The position numbers and the translations under genes were made by a program. From Rhodocyclaceae bacterium (GTDB taxonomy: Bacteria > Pseudomonadota > Gammaproteobacteria > Burkholderiales > Rhodocyclaceae), in the NCBI GenBank assembly GCA_020445785.1, contig JAGRFZ010000030.1, positions 1,699 through 53,221 on the forward strand: a stretch of DNA of 51,523 bases, given 5' to 3'. The notes under the pieces are model-generated. The model did not search any database. It was not told the DNA's origin and saw only the letters and a list, made by a program, of their open reading frames with translations. Positions 37,304 to 43,062 of this stretch are shown in pieces; within the stretch, counting starts at the first letter, position 1; every line of letters starts with the position of its first letter.

Positions 37304-37459
37304 CCGTGTCGGGAACTCGCAGCAGCGACGACGCGACGCAAGGCATCCGCGCCGACCAGCGTTCGCCCGCCGGCATCGCGTGCTGACCGTACAGGATACG
37401 CTCGCCGGGCCGTACGGCCGCGGCCGCCGACGACGCTTCGGGAGGCTGCCCCCGGTTTG

Positions 37460-38740
37460 ATGGAACGCATCGGCAAATACGAGATCAAGGCCCAGGTCGG
37501 CGCCGGCACCACGGCCACCGTCTACCTGGCGCACGACCCGTTCGCCGGCCGCGACGTGGCGATCAAGTACATCGATCCGAACATTCTCTGCGATCCCCGA
37601 CAAGGCCGGCTTTACCGCCAGATCCTGCGCAGCGAGGCGGCCCTCGCCGGCCGCCTCAACCACCCGCATATCGCGCGCATCTTCGACGCCGTGATCACCG
37701 AGCGAGAAGCCTATGTGGTGATGGAATACGTGGCGGGCGGGACCCTCGAACGCTTTACCAGCGCCGACCACCTGCTGCCCGAAGAGCGGGTCATCGAAAT
37801 CGTCTTCAAGTGCAGCCGGGCATTGGACTACGCCTTTCACCAGGGCATCACCCACCGCGACATCAAACCCGCCAACATCCTGATGGTTTCCCCCGACCGG
37901 CAGGACATCAAGCTCTCCGATTTCGGCTCGGCGGTGTTCCAGTCGAGCGACGCCACCCAGGTATCCGGGGTCGGCTCACCGGCCTACATGTCGCCGCAGC
38001 AGATTCGCGAAGTACCCCTCAACCACCAGACCGACATCTATTCGCTCGGTGTCGTCATGTACCAGTTGCTGGCCGGCCGCCTGCCCTTCGAGTCGGTCAA
38101 CAACTACAGCCTGCTCTATCGCATCGCCAACGAGGAAGCACCGCCGCCGTCCCATTTCAACCCGCAGATCCCGCCCCATCTCGACAGCATCGTCGCGCGC
38201 GCGATGCGCAAGGAACTGGAACACCGCTACCGCACCTGGTCGGAGTTCTCCCACGATCTGGCCCAGGCCTTTCGCAACCGATCGGCCGCCGAATCGGACC
38301 ACGACCTGCAGGTGCCGGAGCGATTCGAGATGCTTCGCGGCATGGCCTTCTTTCGCGAGTTCAGCGATGTCGAGCTGTGGGAGGTACTGCGGATCGCCCA
38401 ATGGTCGACGGTGCACACCGACACCTATCTGATGCGCGAGGGCGAACCGGGCGATTCCTTCTGCTTCGTCGCATCGGGCGAGGCGCGCGTACAGAAGGGC
38501 AAGAAGCTGCTGGGCATTCTTACCGCCGGCGACTGCTTCGGCGAGATGGCCCTGTTCTCGGCGGGCAGCGGCACTCGCGGCGCCGACGTGCTGGCGAGCA
38601 CCGAACTGGCCTTGCTGACGATCCGGGGCCACTCCTTGAACCGGGCCACGGAGGCCTGTCGCATGCACTTCTACAAGGCCTTTCTCGAAGTGCTGGCAAC
38701 CCGGCTGGCACTGGCCAATTCGAGGATCGCGAACCTGTGA
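37460..38740 (+). CDS. Ser/Thr protein kinase with C-terminal cyclic-nucleotide-like domain
   Basis: A 426-residue Hanks-type kinase fused to a CRP-like nucleotide-binding domain. The kinase part (about 1-270) has the Gly loop IKAQVGAGTTATVY, Lys36 in VAIKYI, HRDIKPAN (catalytic Asp134), DFGS (Asp154) and SPAYMSPQQ, so it appears active. The second domain (about 297-390) carries GDCFGEMALFSAGSGTRGADVLA, a close match to the phosphate-binding cassette with its conserved Glu and Arg. No membrane segment is present; it should be cytoplasmic. Its target is unknown. The stop overlaps the next start as GTGA, so a co-regulated kinase pair is likely. Confidence 0.92.
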   Translation: MERIGKYEIKAQVGAGTTATVYLAHDPFAGRDVAIKYIDPNILCDPRQGRLYRQILRSEAALAGRLNHPHIARIFDAVITEREAYVVMEYVAGGTLERFTSADHLLPEERVIEIVFKCSRALDYAFHQGITHRDIKPANILMVSPDRQDIKLSDFGSAVFQSSDATQVSGVGSPAYMSPQQIREVPLNHQTDIYSLGVVMYQLLAGRLPFESVNNYSLLYRIANEEAPPPSHFNPQIPPHLDSIVARAMRKELEHRYRTWSEFSHDLAQAFRNRSAAESDHDLQVPERFEMLRGMAFFREFSDVELWEVLRIAQWSTVHTDTYLMREGEPGDSFCFVASGEARVQKGKKLLGILTAGDCFGEMALFSAGSGTRGADVLASTELALLTIRGHSLNRATEACRMHFYKAFLEVLATRLALANSRIANL

Positions 38741-39633
38741 CCAGACGCCCGGAGAGCCTCGCCGATGCGCTCGAGCAATCGATCCGCGATGTCCTCGGCA
38801 ACGCCTTCCGACTCGCCTCATCCGCCCTGCCACCCCCCAATTCGAGCGGCATGGTGGCAGGGCACGGCCAGCGTCTGTTCGGCAAGTTCATGCCGGCGGC
38901 GCAAGCCGACCGGCTCGACGCGGAGGCCGATGGCCTGGGGGCGATCGCCACTACCGGCGCGATCCGCACGCCGGCCGTGGTTGCCCGTGGCGAAGCCGGG
39001 GGCGTCGCCTGGCTGATCCTGGAATGGCTCGACCTGGTCCCGATTGCGGACGACGCCACCGCGGGCCGCGCAGCCGAAGCGGTGGCGGCGATGCACCGTG
39101 TCGAAGGCGAGCACTTCGGCTGGCACCGCAGCAACTTCATCGGCGCCACCCCCCAGGCCAACCACGAGAGCGACAACTGGTCCCGCTTCTTCGCCCTCCA
39201 GCGCCTGCAGCCTCAGTTCGCACTGGCGGCGGCCAACGGCCACGGCGGTGCGCTGCAGAAGGATGGCCGTCGGGTGGTCGAGCGACTGCCGGCGCTGTTT
39301 CTCGACGAGCGACCACGCCCCAGCCTGCTGCACGGAGACCTCTGGCACGGCAACCTGGCCGCCTTGGCGGACGGCACGCCGGTGACCTTCGACCCGGCCT
39401 GCTACCACGGCGACCACGAGGCCGACATCGCGATGAGCGAGCTCTTCGGCGGCCTGCCGTTTGCCTTCTATGCCCAGTATCGGCGGTCGATGCCCCTGTC
39501 GACGGACTACGAGATCCGCAAGCAGCTGTACAACCTCTACCACATCCTCAATCACCTCAACCTGTTCGGCCGCGGCTACCTTTCCCAGGCAAGCCGGATG
39601 GCCGGCCAGTTGCGCGAGTCCTTGGGACGCTGA
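38737..39633 (+). CDS. Fructosamine-kinase-family protein
   Basis: A 298-residue protein of the ketosamine/ribulosamine-kinase family, which phosphorylates sugars attached to amines and so helps deglycate proteins or metabolites. It shows the catalytic block SLLHGDLWHGN (Asp201), the metal block FDPACYHGDHEADIAM (Asp219) and the WHRSNFIG segment. It begins with GTG within the GTGA overlap with the upstream kinase gene, a sign of coupled translation. The convergent nucleotidyltransferase gene ends 19 bases downstream. Protein repair or phosphometabolite control is a plausible role; the exact substrate is not evident. Confidence 0.88.
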   Translation: MTRRPESLADALEQSIRDVLGNAFRLASSALPPPNSSGMVAGHGQRLFGKFMPAAQADRLDAEADGLGAIATTGAIRTPAVVARGEAGGVAWLILEWLDLVPIADDATAGRAAEAVAAMHRVEGEHFGWHRSNFIGATPQANHESDNWSRFFALQRLQPQFALAAANGHGGALQKDGRRVVERLPALFLDERPRPSLLHGDLWHGNLAALADGTPVTFDPACYHGDHEADIAMSELFGGLPFAFYAQYRRSMPLSTDYEIRKQLYNLYHILNHLNLFGRGYLSQASRMAGQLRESLGR

Positions 39634-39652: not shown

Positions 39653-40747
39653 TCAGCCGCTGCTGCGCAGCGACAGGCGCGCGAGCCCCTTGTGGCAGAG
39701 ATGGCGGGCCAGCAGTGCGGGCGGCATCCGCAGCCAGTGGTAGCGCAGTTGGCCCAGCCCACGCGCGAGCGCGCGAATCCGCGGCTCGCCACCGTCGGCG
39801 AGTCGCGGCAGGCAGGCATGGCGCATCAAGAGATCCATCAGGTAACGAGCCGCCGGCCTCGGCGGCTCGCTCCGGCCGGCCACGGCCGGCCAGGGTGTGC
39901 CGAGCCACTGGTGACAATAGTGCAGCGCAAACCACAACAGACCGGAGGCGCGGTGGCGCTCGGCGCGTGTCCGCAATTGGCGCCAATCGTCGTCGCTACG
40001 CATATGCAGGCGGATCAGGCCATCGATATCCACAAGATCCCGCAGCCGACCGGACATCTCGGAGTCTTGAAACAGGTGGATTACCGCATGAATGACCTGG
40101 TCGGCCGGCGCCAGCACGCAATAACGGCTTCCCGGCAGCGCTGTGCGCCCCTGCTCGAGCAACTCGTCGTCGGCACGGGTCCGGCTCGTCACCGGCGCGA
40201 TGGTGTGGTGTAGATCCACTTCGAGCGCGTGTCCGGACGCGCGCATCGGCGGCAACTCGTGGCTCCATTCTCGGTAGTAGCGCTGGTCGTAGGCGTCGGT
40301 CGTCTCTGCTTCCCAGCCGGCCGCGGCGAGCGCCGATTCGGCCTTGTCGAGATCCCGCCGGGCGACCAGCAGGTCCACGTCGTTGGGCATGCGCCCACGG
40401 GAGAATTCCAGTTCCTGGGCGATGTAGGCCGCCCCCTTGAGGAGCACCACATCGATCTCGGCCGGCAACGCGGCCTCCAGGTCTGCCAGCTCGATTCGCA
40501 CCATCTGCAGGCGATGGGCGGCGAAATTGATCGACGAAGTCAGGTGGCCGTGTACCGCCGGCGGCACCGCCGCGAGCAGTTCGGGCTCGCGCTCGATTCG
40601 GTGGGCGATCACGCCCAGCAGGCGGGCCTGGCGGGCAAGGCGCAGGGTTTCGTCCCAATCCGCCAGGGACATCCGCAGCACGTGCCGAATGTCGCCCAGC
40701 AGCGGCAGCAGATGGCGGCCGGCGGGCCCCCGAGCGTCAGGCCGCAT
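39653..40747 (-). CDS. HPr-rel-A cassette nucleotidyltransferase
   Basis: A 364-residue protein of the family of uncharacterised nucleotidyltransferases that accompany HprK-like kinases. The diagnostic core is VVLLKGAAYIAQELEF followed by GRMPNDVDLLVARRD, with Lys104-Gly105, an Arg at 119 and Asp123/Asp125 expected to bind metal and nucleotide. The remainder is helical and of unknown role. The ATG at 40747 overlaps the end of the HprK-like gene by 11 bases. It is the last gene of the cassette. The donor nucleotide and acceptor are unknown; the exported protein at 41948 is one candidate acceptor. Confidence 0.82.
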   Translation of the reverse strand: MRPDARGPAGRHLLPLLGDIRHVLRMSLADWDETLRLARQARLLGVIAHRIEREPELLAAVPPAVHGHLTSSINFAAHRLQMVRIELADLEAALPAEIDVVLLKGAAYIAQELEFSRGRMPNDVDLLVARRDLDKAESALAAAGWEAETTDAYDQRYYREWSHELPPMRASGHALEVDLHHTIAPVTSRTRADDELLEQGRTALPGSRYCVLAPADQVIHAVIHLFQDSEMSGRLRDLVDIDGLIRLHMRSDDDWRQLRTRAERHRASGLLWFALHYCHQWLGTPWPAVAGRSEPPRPAARYLMDLLMRHACLPRLADGGEPRIRALARGLGQLRYHWLRMPPALLARHLCHKGLARLSLRSSG

Positions 40748-41684
40748 CGGCTTCTCCACGGGCATCGTCGAGGAGATCGTCGAGACAGTGGATCGCCTCG
40801 TCGAGGCTGCCATAGCTCAGTTCGAAGGCCGGACAGGTCGCCGCCACATCGGCGACCGCATGAAAGGAAACCGGCCCCAACAAGGCGTAGTTGAAACTGT
40901 TGAAGGCCAGCCGCGAAAAGGCCTGCTCGGGCGGCTGTGGCTTCAGCTGGAGGCGCCCCCCCGCAACGAAGCGCGGGAAGATCACCAGCGCCGGCCGTGC
41001 ATTCCGGCCGGTAGCCGCTGCACTGGCGGCGTCGGGCGCGAGATGGGCGACATCGCCCTTGCGGGTGCCGCAAAACACCGGCCCGATCACCGCGTCGGGG
41101 GAAAATCCGCGAATGACGTCGATCGAACGGTTCTTCAGGGCGACCGGTTTCAGCATCGGCCGCAGCTCGCCGGTCGACGGATCGAGCACGCCGAATTCGT
41201 CCGACAGCAGCCGATAGCCGCGCAGCATCATCGCTGCGGTCAGCGTGCTCTTGCCGGAACCGGGGGTCGCAGCCATGATCACCGCACGCCCGCCACGCGC
41301 CAGTACCCCGGCGTGCAGCAGCACGAACTGGTTGCCGCGCTGGGCGAAGCACCAATTGACGCCCCATTCGAACATCGGCAGGGCGTTGCCGACCGGAAAG
41401 GGCTCGAACGGCTCGACGCCGTCGATGCCGAAGCGGCAGGTCGGCCTCAGGTATCGGCGCAGGCCGCGGCCGAAGTCCACGGATACGTGGTAGTCGGCAA
41501 ACTCGCGGCCTCGCGACAGGCGGAAATTCCGGTACAACAGGCCGACCTGAGCGGCGAACGTCGCCATTGGCGAGCGCACCCGAACGACGCAGGCGCCATA
41601 GTCGATCCAGACGCCGCTGCGCCGCAAGGCGGCATCCGGGGAGAGGGATTCTCGGGGGAGATCGGAAGGGGGCAGCACACTCAC
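40737..41684 (-). CDS. HprK-related kinase A
   Basis: A 315-residue kinase related to HPr kinase/phosphorylase (the HPr-rel-A group). The Walker A loop is ATPGSGKST (139-147), preceded by VLLHAGVLARGGRAVIMA and followed by LLSDEFGVLD with the Asp162 typical of the group. No HPr-like protein is encoded nearby, so the phosphoacceptor is probably something else in the cassette. The start codon is GTG and overlaps the PqqD-like stop (GTGA), implying coupled translation. Cytoplasmic; no signal peptide. Confidence 0.88.
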   Translation of the reverse strand: MSVLPPSDLPRESLSPDAALRRSGVWIDYGACVVRVRSPMATFAAQVGLLYRNFRLSRGREFADYHVSVDFGRGLRRYLRPTCRFGIDGVEPFEPFPVGNALPMFEWGVNWCFAQRGNQFVLLHAGVLARGGRAVIMAATPGSGKSTLTAAMMLRGYRLLSDEFGVLDPSTGELRPMLKPVALKNRSIDVIRGFSPDAVIGPVFCGTRKGDVAHLAPDAASAAATGRNARPALVIFPRFVAGGRLQLKPQPPEQAFSRLAFNSFNYALLGPVSFHAVADVAATCPAFELSYGSLDEAIHCLDDLLDDARGEADAA

Positions 41685-41929
41685 CGGGCGAGCATGCCGA
41701 TCTCCTTCAGTGCACGCAAGAAATCCTGGATCGCGGGCGTGTCGGGCGACACGTCGAGTTCACTCTGGATGCGCTGGCGAAGTACCTGCTCGCCGCAATC
41801 GGGAGCACATTCGTGCAACAACTCGACGATTACCGCGCCGGCCGGCGGCAATATGCGGGTTTCCCAGCGATCGCTGTCGAACACGGCCATGGCATCGCCG
41901 AGACGACGAACGCAGAAACGCTTGTCCAC
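41681..41929 (-). CDS. PqqD-like peptide-recognition protein of the HPr-rel-A cassette
   Basis: An 82-residue protein with the fold pattern of PqqD/RiPP recognition elements: an initial beta region (FCVRRLGDAMAVFDSDRWETRILPPAGA) then helices (VIVELLHECA ... LRALKEIGML). In the HPr-rel-A cassette family such proteins are thought to bind and present a substrate to the modifying enzymes. It starts with GTG 18 bases after the stop of the exported-protein gene, and its stop overlaps the kinase start. Confidence 0.75.
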   Translation of the reverse strand: MDKRFCVRRLGDAMAVFDSDRWETRILPPAGAVIVELLHECAPDCGEQVLRQRIQSELDVSPDTPAIQDFLRALKEIGMLAR

Positions 41930-41947
41930 TGACGAATGGAAGCAGGA

Positions 41948-42457
41948 TCAGTTGATGACGTTCGACTGCAGGTCGGTCGAATTGAGCGAGTTCCAGCACG
42001 ACGCGCCGGCAATCGGGTTCGCCGTCGGAGTGCCCAGATAGACGTAGGATGCCGGGTCGTCGGGACTGACGATGGGATCACTGTAGGCTTCGTAGTCCAC
42101 CAACAGAAAGTACGTCTGGCCGTTGCTCGCCTCGTTGACCGGCGTTTCCGAGATCAGTACCACATCCGAGCCGACGACTTGGTACAGGGACCCGTCCAGT
42201 CGAAAGCCATCAACCACACGGTTCCCCGTAAATCTCAGTCGCAGCCCCGGCACCGAAAAACGCATCCAGGCATCCGGCGCGACGGTGACGCCATCGACGG
42301 TCTCGCCGGTCGCTCGCTCGAGGCTCTTCGCAGCACACGTCAGGCTGCCGGCAGCGAGCGCAGCGCCAGAGGGCAAGGTGAAGATGACGGGGGCGCTCGC
42401 CGCCGCCTTCAGGATGCGGCGGCGCTTGATATTCTGTTCGGAATCTGTGCTTGGCAT
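41948..42457 (-). CDS. Exported protein with Tat-like signal, candidate cassette substrate
   Basis: A 169-residue protein that I cannot assign to a named family. The N-terminus has a basic RRRILK block (12-17), matching the twin-arginine R-R-x-hydrophobic-L-K pattern, a hydrophobic stretch (AAASAPVIFTLPSGAALA) and a likely cleavage after GAALA near 35. The mature part has two cysteines, 41 (LTCAAK) and 154 (GASCWNS), suited to one disulfide, and ends without a sorting motif. It is the first gene of the cassette; the next start is 18 bases downstream. An in-frame GTG at 42478 would extend it by seven residues. Confidence 0.6.
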   Translation of the reverse strand: MPSTDSEQNIKRRRILKAAASAPVIFTLPSGAALAAGSLTCAAKSLERATGETVDGVTVAPDAWMRFSVPGLRLRFTGNRVVDGFRLDGSLYQVVGSDVVLISETPVNEASNGQTYFLLVDYEAYSDPIVSPDDPASYVYLGTPTANPIAGASCWNSLNSTDLQSNVIN

Positions 42458-42671: not shown

Positions 42672-43004
42672 TCAGGACTGCCCCGAAACCAGTCCGGCGT
42701 CGGTCAGCATCTGCTGCAATTCGCCGTTTTCGTACATCTCGCGCATGATGTCGCAGCCGCCGATGAATTCGCCATTGACGTAGAGTTGCGGGATCGTCGG
42801 CCAATCGGAGAATTCCTTGATGCTCTGGCGAATGCCATTGTCGGCCAGCACGTTGACTGAAACGTAGTCCTTGATGCCGCACAGCTTTAGGATCTGCACT
42901 GCGGTAGCCGAGAAGCCGCATTGCGGAATGGCGGGGCTGCCCTTCATGTAGAGCACGACGGGGTTCGAGCCGACTTGTTCCTTGATCGTATCCAGCGGGT
43001 CCAT
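42672..43004 (-). CDS. grxD: Monothiol glutaredoxin (CGFS type)
   Basis: Iron-sulfur cluster carrier/glutaredoxin of the Grx4 family. The 110-residue protein has the CGFS active site in [14 protein letters not shown] and the glutathione-binding blocks [27 protein letters not shown]. The start at 43004 gives the family N-terminus [22 protein letters not shown]; the long in-frame extension upstream lacks conservation. An aggaaa ribosome site lies nine bases before the ATG. It is separated from prmC by 58 bases and is probably the end of the hemA-prfA-prmC-grxD run. The 214 bases on to the cassette gene hold the inverted repeat but no other gene. Confidence 0.96.
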
Positions 43005-43062
43005 GTTCGCGTTTCCTGTGGGGAGTTGGGGAAAATACTTGAGCCAAATGGTCGGGATTAGT

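Follow-up and report, generated by a model that had tools for sequence, protein, structure and literature searches.

The window considered here is a stretch of 51,523 nucleotides from a Rhodocyclaceae bacterium (GenBank assembly GCA_020445785.1, contig JAGRFZ010000030.1, positions 1,699 to 53,221), and its subject is a cassette of four tightly packed minus-strand genes at positions 39653-42457 of that stretch. Two of the four gene products, a PqqD-like protein and a kinase, belong to the HPr-rel-A system, which is annotated in NCBIfam and uncharacterised. In the best reading, the cassette would be a proteobacterial, protein-sized counterpart of two kinds of ribosomally synthesised and post-translationally modified peptides (RiPPs) known from Bacillota, the linear polyphosphorylated peptides (LPP) and the paeninodins. 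The kinase would phosphorylate a conserved serine of the exported protein encoded by the first gene, the fourth gene product would extend the modification, and the twin-arginine translocation (Tat) pathway would export the product. A probability of about 0.6 is assigned to this RiPP-like protein-modification system. The features of the cassette are as follows.

41948-42457, minus strand: exported partner and candidate substrate, class I, with a twin-arginine signal; ATG start, 169 aa; homologues are found beside other cassettes
42407-42427, minus strand: twin-arginine motif KRRRILK of this protein, residues 11-17; all 26 aligned class I partners have R12 and R13
42335-42337, minus strand: codon of Cys41, invariant in 26 of 26 in the alignment; the protein has two Cys in total
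41984-42004, minus strand: C-terminal motif ASCWNSL, residues 152-158; both C154 and S157 are unchanged throughout the 26 aligned class I partners
41987-41989, minus strand: codon of Ser157, the phospho-acceptor proposed from conservation
41681-41929, minus strand: PqqD-like protein, TIGR04353, a RiPP recognition element (RRE) predicted from profile and fold; GTG start, 82 aa
40737-41684, minus strand: HprK-related kinase A, TIGR04352 (NCBIfam); GTG start, 315 aa
41244-41270, minus strand: Walker A sequence ATPGSGKST of the kinase, residues 139-147
39653-40747, minus strand: nucleotidyltransferase-fold protein, PF14907 (Pfam); ATG start, 364 aa

The positions and order of the four genes are those given in the earlier note on this DNA. 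An 18-base gap separates the Tat-like gene from the PqqD-like gene, which overlaps the HprK-like gene by 4 bases, and the latter overlaps the nucleotidyltransferase gene by 11 bases. The PqqD-like protein scores 37 bits with TIGR04353 (NCBIfam cut-off 35) and the HprK-like protein 383 bits with TIGR04352 (cut-off 200), so the curated cut-offs for the HPr-rel-A pair are passed; PF14907 matches the fourth protein with E=1.3e-50. The two family links and the intact Walker A sequence claimed in the earlier note are thus borne out. The exported protein has zero Pfam matches, and its sole NCBIfam match, to a Tat signal region, lies below the cut-off (12.7 bits, cut-off 48). Its signal consists of KRRRILK followed by AAASAPVIFTLPSGAALAA, with a twin arginine, a moderately hydrophobic stretch and a signal peptidase site. 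Judged by these sequence features the protein is a predicted Tat substrate, and TatC is encoded in the same genome. A glutaredoxin gene (42672-43025) and a plus-strand open reading frame (ORF) ending at 39633 flank the cassette and leave room for these four genes only; none of the four encodes HPr, an SpI-like leader peptidase or an MsbA-like transporter.

The company of the exported protein was examined in two sets of loci, in both of which several genomes belong to one genus, so that the loci are not independent. The first set comprised 90 loci around TIGR04352 matches, 32 on named contigs and 58 in stretches from relatives and the class. Removal of three duplicates (L103-L105) and two fused kinases (L101, L102) left 85, and L137 was unassessable where its contig ends, which left 84; L033, whose partner is truncated at its start, was counted. 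The hold-out set was drawn from an order search (kinase in 68 of 399 genomes) and a phylum search (kinase in 61 of 398 genomes), and 100 of the 117 new matches were taken, with 17 phylum matches left out. In 84 of the 84 assessable first-set loci the PqqD-like gene, or the slot for it, is preceded on its own strand by a gene for a twin-arginine protein. A fixed automatic twin-arginine rule recognised 53 of these 84 partners, as against 22 of 625 other ORFs of the same loci, and the remaining 31 were accepted by looser rules or by eye. In the hold-out set a partner was found in 97 of 100 loci: 89 before the cassette, 6 directly after the transferase, 1 masked by a wrong kinase start and 1 encoded divergently together with the PqqD-like gene. 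The earlier note had staked its proposal on the exported protein not being absent beside related HPr-rel-A loci, and the recurrence in both sets indicates that partner and cassette keep company more than by chance. It is almost certain that the cassette includes the exported protein, and very probable that this protein is its client.

The association survives several rearrangements. In L135 about 600 bases separate the partner from the PqqD-like gene downstream, in L100 the PqqD-like gene has moved beyond the transferase with the Tat gene still directly before it, and in L276 the Tat and PqqD-like genes together face away from the kinase. Profile A4 was run over 41 relatives to look for class I partners lying apart from any cassette. 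Nine genomes matched, seven of them at cassettes and two marginally (E ~0.006), and the idea of such orphans was rejected.

The partners are very dissimilar overall and fall into two classes, of which the window's protein represents class I. The sole invariant columns among 26 aligned class I partners are R12, R13, C41, C154 and S157. A tail motif, x[CSA]xxS[ILVFAM] within the last 30 residues, is shared by all 37 first-set partners outside class II, as against a mean of 3.9 and a maximum of 12 in 1000 shuffles; the count is to be read with the motif having been picked after inspection and 10 of the 47 class II assignments having been made by eye. For these reasons the motif was fixed beforehand and applied to the hold-out set, where it occurs in 45 of 51 partners, the doubtful L212 included, as against a shuffle mean of 6.1 (maximum 14). 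The form with cysteine is found in 32 of the 37 first-set partners (CxxS) and in 38 of the 51 hold-out partners (CxxS[ILVFAM]; shuffle mean 0.8, maximum 5). Examples of the tail are SCWNSL, SCWTSF, SCYTSF, TCFASL, GCYTSI, AAYTSI and SAWNSV.

The cysteines of class I were counted in 81 of the 88 non-class-II partners, which were selected for the motif (L192, L202, L228, L255, L258, L259 and L212 left out). The spacing from cysteine to serine is constant in 70 of the 81, and in the other 11 the tail cysteine is lost and the serine kept. All 70 partners that have the tail cysteine carry another one soon after the signal, and the total number of cysteines is even in 76 of the 81. These counts suggest a disulfide pair and a serine that is conserved independently of it. 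It is rather likely that the conserved serine is phosphorylated.

In the AlphaFold2 model of the window's partner the mean predicted local distance difference test score (pLDDT) is 64.6; a beta domain spanning roughly residues 64-121 is predicted with confidence, and the ASCWNS tail stays below 50. The model is poor, and a Foldseek search with it gave no meaningful match (best E 0.098). The shortest partner, L130:5287-5508 on the plus strand, has 74 residues and consists of a Tat signal and about 12 residues ending in SCNASLI; it looks like a Tat-exported RiPP. A look for further short partners in the family of L130 found the kinase above the cut-off in 1 of 8 genomes. A conserved tail on a variable or even absent domain is how an enzyme-accessible modification site would be expected to look.

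Class II partners are about 200 residues long and carry their serines just after the signal, usually as CxxSGxxSGNxS, with SPGYWK or TPGYWK further downstream. In the first set 37 of them were assigned by pattern and 10 by eye. With five near-copies left out, the columns near the mature start were counted in 42 of the 47 partners and give C 42, S 41, S 42, N 30, S 38 and C 42. The C..S..S pattern is present in 38 of 38 hold-out class II partners, a partly circular figure in that the assignment pattern overlaps the one counted. The strict class I tail is found in 0 of 47 first-set class II partners (2 of 47 when relaxed) and in 0 of 38 hold-out ones (0 when relaxed), and cysteines are even in number in just 32 of 42 and 23 of 38 of them, respectively. 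Eight partners scanned against Pfam and NCBIfam, one of them (L133) only in part, gave no match above cut-off.

The PqqD-like protein of the window is confidently modelled by AlphaFold2 (mean pLDDT 92.5) with three strands followed by three helices (E-E-E-H-H-H). Its top Foldseek match in the PDB is the lasso B1 protein TbiB1, followed by a sactisynthase RRE and TfuB1 (best E 2.7e-3, probability 1.00). A profile built from 62 PqqD-like sequences also finds TfuB1 (2e-4) and TbiB1 (1.5e-3) first. From sequence and model, the protein is predicted to be a RiPP recognition element. That it reads the signal of the partner is given somewhat less than an even chance. As a separate observation, L101 (G002:C287, 501 aa) and L102 (G013:C1, 392 aa) each have a long ORF that is recognised by the kinase profile as well as by the PqqD profile and adjoins a gene matching the transferase profile; they appear to be a fused relative, below the TIGR04352 cut-off.

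Both enzymes look active, judging from the conservation of their catalytic residues. H124, G142, G144, K145, D162 and E163 are invariant in the kinase alignment (63 of 63), and K104-G105, D123, D125 and D178, the KG, DxD and D positions, are invariant in 61 of 61 transferases. The earlier note's proposal of kinase and transferase as the modifying enzymes is in keeping with this. A kinase profile search finds the HPr kinase structures 1jb1 and 2qmh first, with the His, Lys and Asp residues aligned. The cassette kinase is not the HPr kinase of the genome, since a gene for the canonical enzyme (TIGR00679, 308 bits) sits on another contig; the cassette kinase itself does not match TIGR00679 at E<=1. 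Whether the transferase acts on the phosphate is judged an even bet.

The kinase tree is closely tied to the partner. On a tree of 63 rows made by a quick method, partner class requires 1 change (Shimodaira-Hasegawa-like approximate likelihood ratio test, SH-aLRT, 95), compared with a mean of 20 when classes are shuffled. The partners that replace the tail cysteine (L052, L096, L100, L117, L119) go with a single kinase clade (99).

The wider genomic setting suggests an exopolysaccharide or envelope role. Exosortase A (XrtA; TIGR03109 above cut-off) is encoded in 35 of 41 cassette genomes and in 38 of 328 genomes without the cassette in a sample of 369 genomes (Fisher p 1.4e-22, uncorrected for phylogeny). 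Cassette and XrtA are on one contig in 13 genomes, at 29-108 kb in 11 and at more than 2 Mb in 2. Among 114 neighbour proteins at 35 loci, where the best 25 of 832 families were listed, the commonest NCBIfam matches are HtrA-like proteases (at least 11) and sugar-nucleotide epimerases (at least 8), and the matches listed include at least 4 exosortase-A-associated ligases. The genes beside the window's own cassette are of other kinds, a glutaredoxin and a Ser/Thr kinase. An envelope or exopolysaccharide role is judged rather less likely than not.

Several further observations concern distribution and neighbours. Besides Beta- and Gammaproteobacteria, other classes of Pseudomonadota also have the system. 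Accumulibacter, which are polyphosphate-accumulating organisms, account for 12 of the 32 named loci (L032, L036, L037, L039, L040, L042-L047, L052). A gene for a trypsin-like protease (PF13365) neighbours the cassette at 23 first-set loci (for example L136:4052-4840, plus strand), 18 of class II and 5 of class I, and at 15 of 100 hold-out loci, where the flanks are short; at several loci it precedes the Tat gene on the same strand. It is a candidate processing or partner protease. The Ser/Thr protein kinase gene of the window (37457-38740, plus strand) encodes a C-terminal CRP-like region of the cyclic-nucleotide-binding type, and a similar gene adjoins several related cassettes. A gene that we take to be prmC adjoins cassettes of class I (L027, L028, L029, L031, L034) and of class II (L089, L094, L099), and what are presumably prfA/prmC-like genes precede the hold-out cassettes L188 and L197; it is as if the cassette had been exchanged in place in this neighbourhood.

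The mechanism proposed here takes from the sequence the genes and their families, the catalytic residues, the near-constant partner with its conserved serine, the agreement of kinase tree and partner class, and the XrtA co-occurrence. From these we infer that the exported protein is the substrate, which residue accepts the phosphate, in what order the steps run, what group is added, that the RRE docks to the signal, that the cysteines form a disulfide, and what the system does. The exported protein would be synthesised with its twin-arginine signal, and the RRE would hold the precursor, most likely through the conserved signal region, and present it to the kinase. The kinase, with ATP, would then phosphorylate Ser157 in the C-terminal ASCWNS tail of the window's protein, as in other class I partners, or, in class II, a serine of C-x-x-S-G-x-x-S-G-N-x-S just after the signal. 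By analogy with the action of PsmN on a phosphorylated lasso peptide, the nucleotidyltransferase-fold protein may add a sugar or a nucleotide to the phosphate. The product would leave through Tat, the cysteine pair of class I would form a disulfide, and the phosphorylated or phospho-glycosylated protein would work in the envelope, probably with exosortase A or exopolysaccharide functions. The earlier note had proposed modification in the cytoplasm followed by Tat export, and the scheme fits that part of its claim. Its suggestion that the protein folds before export finds weak support in the confidently modelled beta domain and fits less well with the low pLDDT of the tail and with L130, where the signal is followed by no more than about 12 residues. 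The scheme in its fullest form, a widespread and so far undescribed pathway of Pseudomonadota, is doubtful as a whole: a Tat signal that doubles as a RiPP leader read by one RRE, and a kinase and a PF14907 protein that build a phospho-sugar or phospho-nucleotide on a serine of two unrelated classes of protein before Tat export, all for an exosortase A/exopolysaccharide surface system.

A number of observations weigh against the proposed modification system. Three hold-out genomes (G861, G1028, G981) have no partner meeting the search rules in the stretch examined around the kinase (up to 19 kb), and the partner of L212, one of the 89 found before the cassette, is doubtful. In six genomes of family f224 (L269-L274) a class II partner lies directly after the transferase and not beside the PqqD-like gene. 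Six hold-out partners (L192, L202, L228, L255, L258, L259) lack the tail motif and were also missed by the rule for class II; it is by eye alone that they look like diverged members of that class. The PqqD profile finds no match in 11 of 85 first-set stretches (L050, L051, six Rheinheimera loci, L094, L097, L099) and in 10 of 100 hold-out stretches, one of which has the gene divergently; in the first-set loci of this kind that were inspected a small ORF usually occupies the PqqD slot. A leader motif [FYW]xxP is carried by 21 of the 37 signals of class I but by 1 of the 47 of class II and so is not general, and a universal leader motif of this form was rejected; the window's signal has FTLP, with F rather than the Y or W of the [YW]xxP known from LPP and lasso precursors.

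The enzymes and the setting add to these points. Lasso kinases are reported to carry an H-K-D-D motif, and where this has its second Asp the cassette kinase has the invariant Glu163. Six first-set transferases are encoded divergently, outside the operon (L130, L132, L140, L142, L143, L144), and 11 hold-out stretches lack the transferase (genomes G820, G884, G895, G888, G911, G861, G926, G907, G830, G811, G805). A real absence was rejected for these, since a PF14907 gene is present in 11 of the 11 genomes, in some within a few kb and in others 12-24 kb off or on another contig. Partner class needs 4 changes on the transferase tree and 7 on the PqqD tree, which is poorly resolved from few columns; the class is thus most congruent with the tree of the kinase, the enzyme proposed to touch the serine. 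The exosortase A statistic carries the lack of phylogenetic correction given above, and XrtA and the cassette are on different contigs in the genome that the window comes from.

Other explanations share parts of this evidence. The PqqD-like protein could be mainly a chaperone of the Tat signal, with the kinase and transferase gating export by transient phosphorylation or nucleotidylation. Redox-enzyme maturation proteins, which are Tat-signal chaperones, offer a model for this. The h- and c-regions of the signals are alike across unrelated mature proteins, as compared among the partners only, and the Tat gene stays directly beside the PqqD-like gene even where it has moved or turned (L100, L276). 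However, control through the signal would not need a conserved serine far from it in the class I tail, partner and PqqD-like gene are separated in the six f224 genomes, and the LPP and lasso kinases leave stable phosphates (PMC13381572, PMC9266682). Export gating is considered unlikely. A shade less likely again is that the Tat protein is an unmodified periplasmic partner and that the enzymes act on something else, for instance a precursor (nucleotide-sugar, lipid or polysaccharide) used by the exosortase A/exopolysaccharide system. The exosortase A co-occurrence would agree with this as well, as would the sugar-nucleotide epimerases among the neighbours, but RREs of known function bind peptides and the kinase tree splits exactly along the class of the exported protein. 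In addition, the HprK-like kinases with known targets phosphorylate a serine of a protein or peptide in the literature examined.

The constant spacing of cysteine and serine in the class I tail could also mean that the phosphate is eliminated and a thioether formed between the cysteine and the dehydro-residue, with C-x-x-S as a lanthionine-like ring. Class III and IV lanthipeptide synthetases do phosphorylate serine prior to elimination. This chemistry is disfavoured because the serine survives loss of the tail cysteine in 11 of the 81 motif-selected class I partners (seven others having been dropped) and because the number of cysteines is mostly even, which suggests disulfides; moreover a lyase or cyclase gene is absent among the four and the transferase would be left without a role. 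A lanthionine-like ring is therefore very improbable. Least probable of all is that the homology to HprK marks the cassette as a copy of HPr kinase signalling that controls carbon or nitrogen metabolism. The genome has its separate canonical HPr kinase, the cassette kinase does not match that family, and its company is an RRE and an exported protein, with an HPr gene absent among the four.

The proposed modification system is best placed by comparison with known ones. According to PMC13381572, an RRE, an HprK-like kinase and an uncharacterised nucleoside triphosphate (NTP) transferase form the core of the LPP clusters of Bacillota, and kinase and transferase are typical of the paeninodin-type lasso clusters, also of Bacillota. 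The same paper describes LPP and paeninodins as restricted to that phylum. What the earlier note put forward as a candidate new protein-modification system is thus not new in every part, since its enzymatic core was already described there. LppK phosphorylates Ser3 of LppA, with the phosphates on that one serine and lost in S3A. LPP precursors are peptides or small proteins of 35-200 aa with a conserved N-terminal part and a variable C-terminal part, and their clusters are often located at capsular polysaccharide loci (PMC13381572). Like the LPP clusters, the cassette brings together a discrete RRE, an HprK-like kinase and an NTP transferase. Unlike them, it has neither an SpI-like leader peptidase nor an MsbA-like exporter among its four genes, and the YxxP leader motif belongs to LPP. 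The cassette also differs from the LPP clusters in having a precursor with its own Tat signal, a proposed class I acceptor serine far from the leader and hosts in Pseudomonadota; a text search of PMC13381572 brought up neither Tat nor twin-arginine.

For the paeninodins and pseudomycoidin (PadeK, ThcoK, PsmK, PsmN), the likeness lies in an HprK-like kinase acting on a C-terminal serine, as proposed here for class I, and in a nucleotidyltransferase homologue. PsmK phosphorylates the C-terminal serine of pseudomycoidin, and the attachment of one or two hexoses to it depends on PsmN; the review PMC9266682 leaves open whether PsmN is instead a nucleotidyltransferase followed by a host glycosyltransferase. 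The cassette differs from these clusters in that its four genes include no leader peptidase B2 or macrolactam cyclase and its partners are mostly protein-sized. The bufferins and other RiPPs modified by MNIO enzymes likewise have precursors with export signals, some of protein length, but there the signals are of the Sec type, termed rare in PMC12452194, and the enzyme is an iron-dependent oxidase, whereas Tat and a kinase are found here. HPr kinase/phosphorylase (1jb1, 2qmh) provides the nearest solved structures by profile, with His, Lys and Asp aligned, and is distinguished by TIGR00679, by the second Asp in place of Glu and by HPr as a companion.

The HPr-rel-A system of TIGR04352 and TIGR04353 is the system to which the cassette itself belongs, and the exported partners that were scanned match no family model. 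In the literature searched, neither HPr-rel-A, HprK-rel-A, TIGR04352 or TIGR04353 nor PF14907 (NTP_transf_5) nor either of the two NCBI product names was found, and the matches listed in a search for Tat with RiPP contain no mention of twin-arginine. RRE-Finder (PMC7470986) and a 2025 RRE paper (PMC12710340), in the texts searched, do not mention HPr, a kinase, TIGR04353 or a nucleotidyltransferase. An annotated yet unexplained system has here been given a candidate substrate, with a particular serine as the candidate acceptor. If the reading is right, the chemistry of RRE, HprK-like kinase and NTP transferase extends beyond the peptides of Bacillota to proteins exported by Gram-negative bacteria, in which a Tat signal may take the part of the leader. 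Both phyla show a link to polysaccharides, through capsule loci in the Bacilli of PMC13381572 and through exosortase A here, which hints at a single envelope function for this chemistry.

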